From Sphingomicrobium sp. (lineage in GTDB: Bacteria > Pseudomonadota > Alphaproteobacteria > Sphingomonadales > Sphingomonadaceae): a stretch of 64,000 nt of DNA. Position numbers and translations under genes: made by a program. The notes beneath the pieces were generated by a model. It saw only the letters and a list, made by a program, of their open reading frames with translations, had not been told where the DNA came from and did not search any database. The stretch is from contig DATCMI010000001.1 of NCBI GenBank assembly GCA_036563485.1, positions 1,179,501 to 1,243,500 on the forward strand. The letters run 5' to 3'. Positions 33,123 to 43,058 of the stretch are shown here, piece by piece; within the stretch, counting starts at the first letter, position 1; each line of letters starts with the position of its first letter.

Positions 33123-34166
33123 ATGCATTTCCTCGACCAGGCCAAAATCTTCATCCGCTCCGGCGCCGGCGGCCCGGGCGCGGTCAGCTTCCGCCGCGAG
33201 AAGTTCATCGAGTTCGGCGGGCCGGACGGTGGGGACGGCGGCAAGGGCGGCGACATCGTCTTCGAAGCGGTGCCGGGCCTCAATACGTTGATCGACTTCC
33301 GCTACACCCAGCATTTCCGGGCGCCGCGCGGCAAGGGCGGTTCCGGCTCGAACCGCACGGGAGCGGGCGGCGACGACCTCGTTATCAAGGTTCCGGTCGG
33401 CACCCAGATCCTTGCCGACGACGAGGATCGGACCCTGCTGGCCGATCTTACCGAGGTCGGGCAGCGCCTGACCTTCCTCCAGGGCGGCATGGGCGGCCGC
33501 GGCAACGCCAGCTACAAGACCTCGACCAACCGCGCACCTCGCCAGCACCAGACCGGGATCGAGGGTGAGGAAATGTGGGTGTGGCTGCGGCTGAAGCTGC
33601 TTGCCGACGTAGGCCTGCTGGGCCTGCCGAATGCCGGCAAGTCGACCTTCCTCAATTCGGTCACCAACGCCTCGGCGAAGGTCGGCGACTATCCGTTCAC
33701 GACGCTGCGCCCGCAGCTTGGTGTCGTTCGCCACAAGGGGCGCGAGTTCGTGCTTGCCGACATCCCCGGGCTGATCGAAGGCGCGGCGGACGGGGCAGGG
33801 ATCGGCGACCGCTTCCTGGGCCATGTGGAGCGCACCCGCGTGCTCCTCCACTTGATCGACGGCGCGGGCGATGACCCGCTGGAGGCCTGGCGGATCGTCC
33901 GCGACGAACTCGGCGCTTATGGCGCCGGGCTTACGGAGAAGGACGAGCTGATCGCCATCACCAAGGCCGACCTTCTCGACCAAGAGCAGCGCGAGGAGCT
34001 TATCGCTGCATTGCGCGCCGAGAGTGGCTCGCCGATTTTCCCCATTTCCGCGCCAATTGACGAAGGCATGGAGCCGCTGCTCGACGCGCTGATCGAACGC
34101 CTTGGGACGCCTGCCGGCGAGCCGCAAGGCGATGCGCCCGCTGAAAGGCCGTGGTCGCCGCTATGA
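33123..34166 (+). CDS. obgE: GTPase Obg (CgtA)
   Basis: An essential ribosome-associated GTPase of 347 residues. The glycine-rich Obg fold (residues 1-158; [26 protein letters not shown]) precedes the G domain with GLPNAGKST (G1), DYPFTTLRP (G2), DIPGLIEGA (G3) and ITKADL (G4). No C-terminal OCT domain beyond a short tail is present. Its stop overlaps the ATG of the cerR-like gene, so the sphingolipid genes may be read from the obgE promoter. Confidence 0.96.
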
Positions 34167-35068
34167 AGCTCGCCGTCACCGGCGCGACCGGCTTCGTCGG
34201 CTCCCACCTGCTCGACGTCGCCACCGCCGCCGGTCACGAGGTGCAGGCGCTGACACGCCGCGAGCAGCCGGAGCGGGCGCAGGTGCAATGGATCCGCGGC
34301 GATCTCGAAAGCCGCAACGCACTTCATGCCCTAGTGGAGGGCGCCGACGCGGTCATCCACGTCGCGGGCACGATCAACGCGCCGAACGCCGCCGGCTTCG
34401 ACAAGGGCAATGTCGAAGGCACGCTGGCGATGCTTGCCGCGGCGACTGCGGGCGGAGTCCGCCGCTTCGTCCACGTCTCGTCGCTAGCGGCGCGCGAGCC
34501 GAAGCTGTCGCTCTACGGCGGCTCGAAGGCGAGGGCGGAGGAGCTGGTCCACAGCTCGGGCCTCGACTGGACCATCGTCCGCCCGCCCGCCGTCTACGGG
34601 CCTGGCGACAAGGAGACGCTTGAGCTGTTCCGAATGGCCAAGCTGGGGCTCATGCTGATGCCGCCCAAGGGCCGTATTTCCGTAATCCATGCCGACGACC
34701 TCGCCCGGCTGCTGATCGCCGCCGCGGGCCCGAACGCCCCGGCCAACATCCTTATCGAGGCCGACGATGGGCGGCCGAGCGGCTGGAGCCATCGAGAATT
34801 TGCCAAGGCGCTGGCCGCGGCGGTGGGCAAGAATGCCGCGGTGATCTCCTCGCCGGGCATCCTGCTGCGCGCAGCCGCACGCGTCGATCAGCTGGTGAGG
34901 GGCGAAAAAGCCAAGCTGACCGCCGACCGCGCGGCTTATTTCTCGCACCGCAACTGGGTGATCGAGCCGAAGCGCGCCGCCCCGCCGGAACTGTGGAAGC
35001 CCGAGATCGAAACGCATGAGGGGCTGAAGCAAACCGCCGACTGGTATCGCTCAAAGGAGTGGCTCTAG
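34163..35068 (+). CDS. cerR: NAD(P)-dependent epimerase/reductase, candidate sphingolipid reductase CerR
   Basis: An extended SDR of 301 residues. It shows the Rossmann motif TGATGFVG (6-13), the substrate-side HVSSLA motif and the catalytic Y118-x-x-x-K122 (LYGGSK). In Caulobacter the epimerase-like CerR reduces the 3-keto group of sphingolipid intermediates and is encoded beside spt and its acyl carrier protein. The same arrangement here supports that role. The start at 34163 overlaps the obgE stop. The assignment is by family plus context; a general SDR role cannot be excluded. Confidence 0.75.
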
Positions 35069-35135
35069 CCGCGCTCGCGCCGCATTGCGGCCCCATATCG
35101 TTGCGAAGGGCGGGTACGGAGACTAACGAACCGCC

Positions 35136-40630: not shown

Positions 40631-40704
40631 GTATTCACCGCCGGGTCCGCTATACGCTTCGCTTCGATCGGGGTGGCCGGGGGGTCCGGACGCACCTCAT
40701 CGAT

Positions 40705-41958
40705 ATGCACTCTGGCCCTGCTTTGCGGCCAAATGATGGTGTTCGGACGACCAAATTGCCCAGTATCGGCCTCATCGACCGCTATCTTGCGCGCTCCATC
40801 GCGGTGCCGCTGATCGGCTCGCTCGTGCTCGCGGCGATGCTGCTGATCCTCGATAAGATGCTGCGGCTGTTCCAATATGTGGTCGACGCAGGCGGCCCGG
40901 TCAGCGTCGTCTGGCGGATGCTCGCCAACCTGCTGCCCGAATATCTGTCGCTCGGCATCCCGATCGGTCTGATGCTCGGCATCCTGCTGGCGTTCCGCAA
41001 GCTGGCCTTGTCGTCGGAGCTCGACGCGCTGCGCGGCATCGGCGCCGGCTACGGCCGGCTGCTTCGGGTGCCTTATGCTTATGCGATCCCGCTCGCGCTC
41101 ATTAACCTCGGCATTGTCGGCTACCTCCAGCCGTTCAGCGAATATCGCTACGAAAGCCTGCGCTTCGACCTGAAATCCGGCGCCCTCGGCGCGTCGATCA
41201 AGGTCGGCGAGTTCAACCAGCTCGGCCGCCGCCTGACTCTCCGCATCGACAAGAGCGAGAACAAGGGAACGCAGCTCCACGGCATTTTCGTCGCGACCGA
41301 AGACAATAAGGGGATGCGGGTGGCCGCGACCGCGCTCCACGGGCGCTTCCTGGCGACGGACGACCCGGACAAGATCCTGTTCCGGCTGTCGGAAGGGCGC
41401 CTCGTCCAGAATTCTCCCAAATTCTCGACGCCGCGCACGCTCGCCTTCGAAAGCTACGATCTGCCCGTCACCCTCCCGATGATCGACCAGTTCCGGGGCC
41501 GCGGCGGCAGCGATGCCGACGAGCTCTACCTGCACGAGTTGTGGCGCATCGGCTATGGCGGCGGCGCCAGGGACCGCGACCAGAGGCTCGAAGCGCAGGC
41601 GAACTTCAATTTCCGCATCGTCGAGGTGCTGATGATGGTCATGCTCCCGCTGCTGGCGCTCGCGCTCGCGGTACCGCCGAAGCGAAGCTCGTCCGGCCTC
41701 GGCATCTTCATCGGCATCCTGATCGTCGTCGCCTATCACAAGGTGAACCAATACGGGCAGCAGGCCGGCGCCAACGGCCGCGTCGATCCGATCATCGCCT
41801 TGTGGGTGCCGTTCGTGATCTTCAGCGCAATGATCGGCTGGATGTATCATGTGCTCGCGCATCGGCCTGGCGGGCAGCCGATCGGCGCGCTCGAGCGCTT
41901 CTTCTCGCGCATCGGCGCCTTCTTCCGATCACTTACCAAACGGCGGCAGGAAGCATGA
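40705..41958 (+). CDS. lptF: LptF/YjgP-family permease
   Basis: A six-helix inner-membrane protein with a large periplasmic domain between helices 3 and 4. TM1-3 fall in residues 28-130, the beta-jellyroll part at about 140-290 and TM4-6 at 305-400. LptF and LptG form the membrane part of the ABC transporter LptB2FG, which extracts lipopolysaccharide. ATG 40705 gives 417 aa. It overlaps lptG by an ATGA. In a sphingolipid-making organism the cargo could differ from LPS. Confidence 0.85.
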   Translation: MHSGPALRPNDGVRTTKLPSIGLIDRYLARSIAVPLIGSLVLAAMLLILDKMLRLFQYVVDAGGPVSVVWRMLANLLPEYLSLGIPIGLMLGILLAFRKLALSSELDALRGIGAGYGRLLRVPYAYAIPLALINLGIVGYLQPFSEYRYESLRFDLKSGALGASIKVGEFNQLGRRLTLRIDKSENKGTQLHGIFVATEDNKGMRVAATALHGRFLATDDPDKILFRLSEGRLVQNSPKFSTPRTLAFESYDLPVTLPMIDQFRGRGGSDADELYLHELWRIGYGGGARDRDQRLEAQANFNFRIVEVLMMVMLPLLALALAVPPKRSSSGLGIFIGILIVVAYHKVNQYGQQAGANGRVDPIIALWVPFVIFSAMIGWMYHVLAHRPGGQPIGALERFFSRIGAFFRSLTKRRQEA

Positions 41959-43058
41959 TCAACTTCGGCCTGTTCCGGTCGCGGCGGCTCGCGCTGTACA
42001 TGGTGCGGCTGTTCCTGACGCGCAGCATCGCCGTGCTGTTCGCGCTGATCCTGGTGCTGATGACGCTCGACCTGCTCGGCGAAGCCGGCAAGATCCTCGC
42101 CGTTCCCGGCAACAGCGACGCCGACTTGTGGCACTATGTCGCGCTTCGCATCCCCGTGCTGGTATCGCGCTTCCTGCCCTTCTGCGTTCTGCTGGGGACG
42201 CTGATCGCGTTCGTCGGGCTCAACCAGAACAGCGAAGTGGTGGCGATGAAGGCGGCGGGCCTGTCCGCGCACCAGATCCTGGCGCCGCTCGTCCTTGCAA
42301 GCGTCCTCGTCGCCGGCGCCTTGTTCGCGTTCAACGAAGGGGTGGTCGTCAACAGCACCCGTCACGTCAACGCCTGGTCGAACAACGACTACAAGCCGGT
42401 GCCGCCCGCCAGCGGCATCAACAGCAATGTCTGGCTGCTCGACGGCGACGACCTCGTTCAGGCCGGGATCGTGGCCGGCCGGGGAGAGGGCATGCGGCTG
42501 CAGGGCGTCAGCATCTACGATCGCACCGGCAGCGTGCTGCAGCGCACGATCACTGCCGAGAGCGCGCGGCGCGACGCGGCCCACGACGGCTGGCTGCTCG
42601 AGAAGGTCACGATCTACGATGCCGGCCAGAACGTGGTTCGGCGCCTGCCGCGGCTCGAGGCCTTGCCGGGGGTTCAGCCCGCCCAGTTCACGCTCGCCAG
42701 GGTGGAACCGGGCGAACTCGATTATTGGACATTGAAGCAGCGCATCGCGCAGTTGGAGGCGGCGGGGCGTCCGGCGGACGAAGCGCGCGCCGGACTCGCG
42801 CACAAATTGTCGGGCCCGCTGTCGACCGTGCTGATGCCGCTGCTCGCGGCGATCGCCGCCTTCGGCCTCGCCCGCTCGGGCCATGTGCTGCTTCGCGCAG
42901 TGATGGGCATGGCGCTCGGCTTCGCTTATTTCGTCGCCGACAATTTCGCGCTCGCGATGGGCAATGCCGGCGTTTATTCCCCGATGGTCGCCGCCTGGGC
43001 GCCCTTCCTGCTGTTCCTCCTGATCGGCGAAACGGTGCTGATCCGCACCGAGGAATGA
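41955..43058 (+). CDS. lptG: LptG/YjgQ-family permease
   Basis: Partner of LptF with the same architecture: TM1-3 within residues 10-125, the periplasmic jellyroll at about 130-260 and TM4-6 at about 280-362. The coupling-helix-like sequence LNQNSEVVAMKAAGLS is typical of the family. The ATG at 41955 overlaps the lptF stop, and its own stop overlaps the phoR start. No lptB, lptC or lptA is in the window. Confidence 0.86.
   Translation: MINFGLFRSRRLALYMVRLFLTRSIAVLFALILVLMTLDLLGEAGKILAVPGNSDADLWHYVALRIPVLVSRFLPFCVLLGTLIAFVGLNQNSEVVAMKAAGLSAHQILAPLVLASVLVAGALFAFNEGVVVNSTRHVNAWSNNDYKPVPPASGINSNVWLLDGDDLVQAGIVAGRGEGMRLQGVSIYDRTGSVLQRTITAESARRDAAHDGWLLEKVTIYDAGQNVVRRLPRLEALPGVQPAQFTLARVEPGELDYWTLKQRIAQLEAAGRPADEARAGLAHKLSGPLSTVLMPLLAAIAAFGLARSGHVLLRAVMGMALGFAYFVADNFALAMGNAGVYSPMVAAWAPFLLFLLIGETVLIRTEE

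Follow-up and report, generated by a model that had tools for sequence, protein, structure and literature searches.

A probable locus for sphingolipid synthesis and export, with an S-type LptF-LptG pair, in a sphingomonad without LpxC

Gene content of the locus

The window analyzed here, a stretch of 64,000 nucleotides from a Sphingomicrobium sp. contig, carries a block of genes that begins with the GTPase gene obgE (33123-34166, + strand; NF008956, 439.9 bits), a housekeeping neighbor outside the sphingolipid system. Its 3' end is overlapped by the 5' part of a gene coding for a cerR-like NAD(P)-dependent reductase (ceramide reductase; 34151-35068, +; PF01370, E 3e-26), homologs of which adjoin acp-spt in related loci. 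An AcpR-type acyl carrier protein (35136-35378, +; PF00550, E 6.9e-8) and the serine palmitoyltransferase Spt (35473-36684, +; NF047603, 806.7 bits against a cutoff of 670) are encoded next; cerR, acp, and spt are contiguous in that order, and acp lies immediately 5' of spt, as is likewise described for the AcpR gene (PMC9386255). Between spt and the gene for a 289-aa protein sits a hybrid histidine kinase gene with a response-regulator domain (36741-38738, +; 665 aa; PF02518 and PF00072), which overlaps the latter tail to tail by 44 bases and, having a homolog in 69 of 80 named loci, is a conserved neighbor.

The 289-aa protein, a CpgC-like nucleotidyltransferase with the Tam41 fold (38695-39564, -; assigned by an AlphaFold2 model and PDB fold matches), and a CpgB-like lipid (ceramide) kinase of the DAGK type (39575-40630, -; PF00781, E 1.5e-13, with a GGDG motif) are encoded on the opposite strand; the real start of the kinase may lie inside the ORF. 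The block ends with two S-type permease genes of the S clade, lptF (40705-41958, +; TIGR04407, 238.9 bits against a cutoff of 230) and lptG (41955-43058, +; PF03739, E 2.4e-73 at C1:1221497-1222546). The lptG start at 41955 gives the two genes a 4-base overlap, and both score above the PF03739 cutoff. Neither CerS nor a CpgD-like protein was found within the window. A preliminary description had placed obgE, the cerR-like gene, acp, spt, the DAGK gene, the 289-aa protein, and lptF-lptG here, and each is recognizable at its place; its list fell short in omitting the hybrid histidine kinase and in running the housekeeping gene obgE together with the sphingolipid genes.

Conservation of the neighborhood

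We surveyed relatives of the 289-aa protein with their surroundings at 34 loci, in stretches of up to 20 kb, contig ends included; 31 of these loci had more than 1 kb upstream and were hence assessable for a kinase neighbor. A DAGK gene directly adjoins the CpgC-like gene on the same strand in 28 of these 31 loci, at 6 to 112 bases from its aligned stretch, and the CpgC-like gene stands without an adjacent kinase in the other 3. Both lptF and lptG fall within the stretch in 26 of the 34 loci, and spt in 24. By these locus counts, the gene linkage is beyond chance. The same neighborhood was found in many alphaproteobacterial families and many named sphingomonads, as would be expected of the functional block that the preliminary description had envisaged. 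Of 580 confirmed places in a scan of genome contigs, the best 80 were kept, and no Caulobacter record is among them.

The kinase and the CpgC-like protein

The CpgB-like kinase carries GGDGT, GKTN, and LDGE motifs, has DAGK_cat as its only Pfam match, and does not contain the eukaryotic CxxxCxxC motif. By profile score it groups with the cluster kinases (listed at 220 to 454 bits), with YegS of Escherichia coli far below (153 bits). It shares with the Caulobacter ceramide kinase CpgB (PMC10331486) the DAGK family, the GGDG motif, the lack of CxxxCxxC, and the gene neighbors, a likeness of position and motifs rather than of sequence-to-sequence comparison with CpgB. CpgB phosphorylates ceramide in vitro (PMC10331486, PMC11324152), and ceramide phosphoglycerate in Caulobacter requires both CpgB and CpgC (PMC11324152, PMC12275187). 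In one related family without a CpgC-like gene, the kinase is full length and lacks the GGDG motif in all 20 genomes examined.

The 289-aa protein had been singled out earlier for a nucleotidyltransferase-like motif, and its AlphaFold2 model (pLDDT 90.5) has a Tam41 fold: the five best matches in a fold search of the PDB were all Tam41 (TM-score 0.44 to 0.59, identity 13 to 18%), with a Foldseek E value of 2.5e-7 to 7ecd. Tam41 was reached only by the fold search; when the PDB was searched by sequence, neither the window protein nor its 33-member profile led there. PF09139 has no match in the window protein and matches 2 of the 33 family members, the one seen in detail scoring 23.2 bits, under the 24-bit cutoff. 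The CpgC-like family has a single invariant acid in its GS...LDxY motif, which is consistent with the single acid retained in Tam41 (PMC11646218). The likeness to the Tam41/TAMM41 CDP-DAG synthases consists of a fold shared along most of the length and one conserved active-site acid; the context of the window protein points to ceramide-1-phosphate as substrate instead of phosphatidic acid. The Tam41 fold suggests that the CpgC-like protein, and with it Caulobacter CpgC, may synthesize CDP-ceramide. The mechanism of CpgC is called unidentified in PMC12275187 and PMC13228409, and the Tam41 fold gives it a concrete, assayable reaction.

LpxC and LptF/LptG gene counts

A complete lpx pathway would have spoken against the preliminary description. 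A search for lpxC, a key gene of LPS synthesis, did not find it in the window's genome or in any of the 99 sampled genomes of the order, while the same model was positive in 243 of 289 genomes of the class Alphaproteobacteria. The window's genome has exactly two LptF/G genes, the single pair in the window. LptF/G genes are present in 96 of the 99 order genomes, and LptD in 98, including the window's genome, where it is encoded elsewhere than in the window. In the class sample, four or more LptF/G genes were found in 14/14 genomes with both LpxC and the CpgC-like gene, in 0/20 with the CpgC-like gene and no LpxC, and in 2/229 with LpxC and no CpgC-like gene; the LpxC-negative set is the 289 genomes minus the 243 positives, and two zero LptF/G counts were derived by subtraction. 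On phylogenetic terms, this contrast between LpxC and a second pair comes down to three independent pairs on well supported branches (four on all branches; p 0.25).

There are exceptions to the pattern. The order sample, all LpxC negative, includes 13 genomes out of 99 that carry between three and five LptF/G genes; copy numbers of four or five occur in 5 of its 65 genomes with the CpgC-like gene, and the sole extra pair examined (from G335) belongs to the S type and has none of the cluster genes in its stretch. The CpgC-like gene is missing in 34 of the 99 order genomes, far more than lack LptFG, so the cargo cannot consist solely of CpgB/CpgC products. An LPS-type LptF was present in 5/5 of the class genomes checked that were negative for both LpxC and the CpgC-like gene; a missed LpxC is therefore no proof of missing LPS.

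Phylogeny of LptF-LptG

A tree by a quick method separated the 53 S-type pairs, the window's included, from the 17 of LPS type (SH-aLRT 100), and a careful tree built on 30 pairs resolved the LPS type and the S type each as one group (100/99 and 100/100). The trees do not include L186, which is a lone LptF, or other third copies, and the pairs of G027, G202, G227, and G230 received their S or second-pair label from profile scores, not linkage. Among the charged LPS contacts described for Lpt permeases (PMC6744409), LptG K40 is basic in 14/17 LPS-type versus 1/53 S-type pairs and K41 in 16/17 versus 9/53; the remaining charged contacts given in that source do not separate the two types in this way.

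A second LptFG lineage adjoins spt in E. coli BL21(DE3) and in the alphaproteobacterium G246. The E. coli island, located by coordinates estimated from the locus tags in PMC9386255, has no kinase or CpgC annotated, and blastn of the window spt against E. coli gave no match. When G246 was included, in a set picked after earlier results, an AU test rejected joining the second lineage to the S clade (p 3.3e-5), while without G246 joining the E. coli pair to it was not rejected (p 0.07).

Proposed function and alternative explanations

It seems likely that this block makes, activates, and exports sphingolipids in a sphingomonad that lacks LpxC. Serine palmitoyltransferase with its own ACP would produce the sphingoid base, CerR would reduce the ceramide precursor, and the CpgB-like kinase would phosphorylate ceramide. 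The CpgC-like Tam41-fold protein, most likely with CTP, would then form CDP-ceramide, allowing head-group attachment. The S-type LptF-LptG, the sole pair found in the genome, would remove the completed sphingolipids (phospho- and/or glyco-) from the inner membrane, with the Lpt bridge and LptD receiving them. Observed are the genes and their conserved linkage, the lack of LpxC, the lone LptFG pair in the S clade, LptD, and the Tam41 fold; the substrates, the formation of CDP-ceramide, and transport in this direction are inferred. Synthesis, phosphorylation, and export of sphingolipid by this block, as first put forward in the preliminary description, gain support short of proof from the LptFG counts, the trees, the linkage, and the lack of LpxC, and its proposal that LptFG moves sphingolipid rather than LPS, still inferential, agrees with the counts and trees apart from the exceptions above.

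Glycosphingolipid may be carried in addition to phosphosphingolipid, and a plausible though less probable reading goes further, taking LptFG as an outer-membrane lipid exporter chiefly for glycosphingolipid, with the kinase and the CpgC-like protein as a nearby side branch. Sphingomonad glycosphingolipids are in print, and the retention of LptFG in order genomes that lack the CpgC-like gene fits this reading, as do five genomes of the window's family (L178, L179, L181, L182, and L183) that have no CpgC-like gene and no kinase in the stretch and keep an S-type LptFG, and the BL21(DE3) pair linked to spt with neither gene annotated beside it. However, the kinase, the CpgC-like gene, spt, and LptFG are adjacent across many families, which argues for one pathway. 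The two readings depart from each other mainly in the dominant head group. It is unlikely that diacylglycerol is the substrate of the kinase and ordinary CDP-diacylglycerol the product of the Tam41-fold protein, with neither working on ceramide: the characterized Tam41 enzymes do yield CDP-DAG (PMC7018664) and DAGK_cat is all that Pfam recognizes in the kinase, but the linkage to spt in 24/34 stretches, the Caulobacter genes in the same position that serve ceramide phosphoglycerate, the ceramide kinase activity of CpgB in vitro (PMC10331486, PMC11324152), and the lack of the catalytic motif in the kinase of the CpgC-less family all tell against it.

That LptFG is an ordinary LPS exporter lying beside spt by accident, its LPS made by an unrecognized route, is very improbable. 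LptF does pass the curated LptF model and the genome retains LptD, the exit protein for LPS, but LpxC is missing throughout the order where the same model finds it in most of the class, and LPS-type LptFG forms another clade, of which the window's genome has no pair. We rejected the ordinary LPS exporter on these two grounds, the lack of LpxC and the different clade.

Returning to sphingolipid export by the S-type pair, a wider joint reading can be offered tentatively, as a possibility somewhat short of even. Dedicated sphingolipid-exporting LptFG would have arisen at least twice in proteobacteria, as the S type of alphaproteobacteria and as the spt-linked type of E. coli and at least one alphaproteobacterium, and LPS-less bacteria would have kept the S type only. 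CpgC, with its Tam41 fold, would make CDP-ceramide, and the motif-less kinase would have been retained for a second, non-catalytic role, perhaps handing lipid to LptFG. If true, Lpt would be a modular exporter in which each surface lipid has a dedicated permease type.

Comparison with known systems

The window's pair belongs to the same LptF/LptG family as the LptB2FGC LPS exporter of E. coli, with LptD likewise encoded in the genome, but differs in lying in the separate S clade. The transit of sphingolipids from the inner to the outer membrane is stated as not known in PMC11324152, and PMC11087976 speaks of no flippase or lipid transporter identified for them; the gene counts and the tree point to a defined permease clade for this transit, and the spt-linked pair in BL21(DE3) makes the question directly testable.

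In the Caulobacter crescentus cluster CC_1168-CC_1152, cerR, acpR, spt, a lipid kinase, a CDP-DAG-synthase-like gene, and LptF/LptG occur together, and LptF2/LptG2 have already been proposed there as sphingolipid exporters (PMC11324152). On the basis of S. wittichii and Z. mobilis, the same source describes such genes as scattered in Sphingomonadales. The parts list is thus known from Caulobacter, and it is the case for a dedicated exporter branch that is taken further here, through the combination of no LpxC and a single LptFG pair in one genome, the contrast in class-sample counts, the S clade, and the spt-linked BL21(DE3) lineage. The window block is a compact sphingomonad version of the Caulobacter cluster with the same kinds of genes, differing from it in the inserted hybrid histidine kinase, in the absence of CerS and CpgD from the window, and in belonging to a genome with a single LptFG pair and no LpxC.

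Gene content of the block and absence of LpxC

The block consists of obgE, cerR, acp, spt, a hybrid histidine kinase gene (36741-38738), a CpgC-like gene coding for a 289-aa protein (38695-39564, minus strand), a CpgB-like DAGK-family lipid kinase gene (39575-40630, minus strand), lptF (40705-41958, plus strand) and lptG (41955-43058, plus strand). Judged from its sequence, the best reading is that its genes serve to make, activate, and export sphingolipids in a cell lacking LpxC. The preliminary description had the genes it named right, but its list lacked the hybrid histidine kinase lying between them. 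This gene, a possible regulator, shares 44 bases at its 3' end with the convergent CpgC-like gene and is a conserved neighbor of spt (homolog in 69 of 80 named loci).

The genome is a single contig of 2.33 Mb, 99.9% complete, and no LpxC was found in it, in keeping with the preliminary inference. Nor was LpxC found in any of the 99 genomes sampled from the order, with a control search that detects the Caulobacter and Escherichia coli proteins. LptF/G were present in 96 of these genomes, LptD in 98 (including the one studied here) and the 289-aa family in 65. The serine palmitoyltransferase (SPT) model matched all 99, but only 39 exceeded its cut-off (the best score in most of the other 60 was 549 to 664 bits, and about 240 in G300), and it also matched 12 of 14 control genomes, all below the cut-off. 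In the class sample of 289 alphaproteobacteria, an LptF of the LPS type was found in five genomes lacking both LpxC and the 289-aa family (G087, G059, G127, G166, and G224), and hence failure to find LpxC is no proof of missing LPS.

Conservation of the neighborhood

A single-protein search, which distant relatives may escape, found relatives of the 289-aa protein in 34 of 289 alphaproteobacterial genomes, its own included; its best 80 named places carry sphingomonad labels, save a few labeled only Proteobacteria or bacterium. We compared 34 loci from 33 genomes, as stretches of up to 20 kb around the matches outside its own genome. The linkage noticed in the preliminary description recurs among them: the kinase directly adjoins the 289-aa gene on the same strand in 28 of the 31 loci with more than 1 kb upstream (not in L052, L053, and L054; L045, L046, and L060, cut by a contig end, are outside this count), and lptF with lptG lie within 26 of the 34 stretches and spt within 24. 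Among the 80 named loci, 72 extend 5 kb or more upstream; the kinase was found in 45 of them, and lptF and lptG in 45. Downstream, 63 extend that far, and spt was found in 58 of these and the histidine kinase in 57. In 27 of the 58 loci that reach 5 kb or more on both sides, the kinase, lptF, lptG, and spt occur all together, and many of the named loci without kinase and lptFG are labeled Sphingobium.

The CpgC-like gene and the kinase gene can move together as a pair, as indicated by G244 (L058), where the pair is present with no spt or lptFG found in its 20-kb stretch, and by G333, where about 1 Mb separates the CpgC-like gene from lptFG. In G370 (L179), of the same genus as the window, an S-type lptFG pair (of the clade of the window pair) is kept; no CpgC-like gene was found, nor a kinase within the fetched stretch.

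A predicted Tam41 fold and a kinase homolog without its motifs

The 289-aa protein, left unclassified in the preliminary description apart from a nucleotidyltransferase-like motif, can now be assigned a predicted fold. Tam41 is a CDP-DAG synthase, and the five best PDB matches of the AlphaFold2 model (48 sequences, mean pLDDT of 90.5) are all Tam41 structures (E values of 2.5e-7 to 2.1e-5, TM-scores of 0.44 to 0.59, identities of 13 to 18%). The protein itself has no Pfam match; among 33 relatives, two match PF09139, the best with an E value of 9.8e-7. Residues invariant in the 33 relatives include Y41, G42, D56, P82, K95, R120, Q123, P124, E178, R180, and E182. Of the fold's three acids, Tam41 retains one according to the available text of PMC11646218, in agreement with the lone acid in the GS...LDxY motif of the 289-aa family. 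As far as the portions available of PMC11324152, PMC12275187, and PMC13228409 go, Caulobacter CpgC (CC_1161) is required for ceramide phosphoglycerate, and its mechanism is described as unidentified; a CDP-DAG synthase and an activated ceramide had earlier been suggested from an InterPro domain. Our identification of the 289-aa family with CpgC relies on position and predicted fold rather than on direct comparison.

The window kinase has the motifs GGDGT, GKTN, and LDGE. Within the order, family f165 was sampled with 22 genomes, and the 289-aa family was missing from 21; in all 20 of these that were fetched (L169, L170, L171, and L193-L209), a full-length kinase homolog lies beside lptF and spt, with GGDGT, GKTN, and the E of LDGE gone. 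The only f165 genome with the 289-aa gene (G295) keeps all three motifs, and the other nine loci with this gene in the comparison keep GGDG. The loss was seen in a single clade and thus probably reflects one event. The one pair with unsaturated dS has a dN/dS of 0.11. The f165 homolog is likely a conserved pseudokinase. This pattern suggests that the catalytic activity of the kinase supplies the CpgC step and that an additional function has favored retention of the protein.

LptFG copy number, clades, and cargo

LptF/G genes number exactly two in this genome, and the window holds both. We combined LpxC searches, LptF/G counts, and 289-aa family searches over the 289 alphaproteobacteria. All 14 genomes in which LpxC and the 289-aa family occur together had at least four LptF/G genes (G027 had five matches, one a short fragment), versus none of the 20 with the family and without LpxC (two genes in 18, three in one, and none in one 82%-complete draft). 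Among the 229 LpxC-only genomes, 202 had two, eight had three, nine had one, eight had none, and two had four (G022 and G246; a G246 pair adjoins spt-acp-cerR).

The LpxC-negative order sample speaks against a strict rule tying a second pair to LpxC: two genes were found in 82 genomes, none in three, one in one, three in eight, four in three, and five in two, that is, more than two in 13 of 99, and four or five in 5 of the 65 genomes that carry the 289-aa family. The one extra pair fetched (G335, L222:7449-9799) is S-type by score, i.e., of the clade of the window pair (LptF, 441 versus 146 bits; LptG, 369 versus 124 bits), and none of the other window genes was found in its stretch; the lone extra LptF of G299 (L186) is S-type by score. 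Both stand away from the cluster in LpxC-negative genomes, so extra S-type copies do occur, and it is safer to say that LPS-type pairs accompany LpxC. The gene tree of the S-type pairs implies a minimum of four changes in LpxC status, with three independent pairs on well supported branches and four on all, too few for significance.

A quick tree of 70 LptFG pairs placed the 14 second pairs and three LpxC-positive controls in one group (LPS-type) and, in the other (S-type), 31 pairs from genomes with the 289-aa family and 22 from the order, the window included (SH-aLRT, 100). For four genomes, profile scores rather than linkage had been used beforehand to sort the two pairs. The same split appears in a careful tree of 30 pairs. 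The charged LPS contacts of LptG and LptF (available part of PMC6744409) were compared between the two groups. LptG K40 is basic in 14 of 17 LPS-type versus 1 of 53 S-type pairs and K41 in 16 of 17 versus 9 of 53; R133 of LptG is basic in 0 of 17 versus 21 of 53 and R263 in 6 of 17 versus 25 of 53. LptG K34 is acidic in most pairs of each type, R33 of LptF is mostly basic in the two types alike, and basic residues are uncommon in each type at R136, at K62, and at K317 and K322 of LptF. These cavity positions only faintly suggest different cargo for the two types.

Comparison with known sphingolipid loci

In E. coli BL21(DE3), a second lptG-lptF pair adjoins ceramide-type genes (spt, acp, a CerR-like gene, and one for a fatty acyl-AMP ligase; L214:22835-31843), together with YtfJ-like and flippase-like genes; no kinase or CpgC was seen in this island. 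Its YghO is 41 to 45% identical to putative ceramide synthases of L054 and L047, so named from their position. The spt-lptG-lptF block is present over at least 80% of its length in 4,042 of 5,426 E. coli genomes. The spt-linked pair of G246 (L215), an LpxC-carrying alphaproteobacterium, clusters with the BL21 pair and not with the S clade, and in the careful tree both group with the canonical K-12 pair. In that set, which includes one gammaproteobacterial canonical pair, forcing them into the S clade was rejected (AU P = 3.3e-5); in an earlier set without G246, the forced union was not (AU P = 0.07).

"Lpt" does not occur in the available text of PMC9386255, which depicts the BL21 spt region, and a full-text search pairing "serine palmitoyltransferase" with "LptF" found nothing beyond PMC11324152. 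The available text of that paper already gives the parts list and the transport idea for Caulobacter; what is added here are the counts of LptFG genes, the S clade, an apparently separate spt-linked lineage in E. coli, the predicted Tam41 fold, and the kinase kept without its motif.
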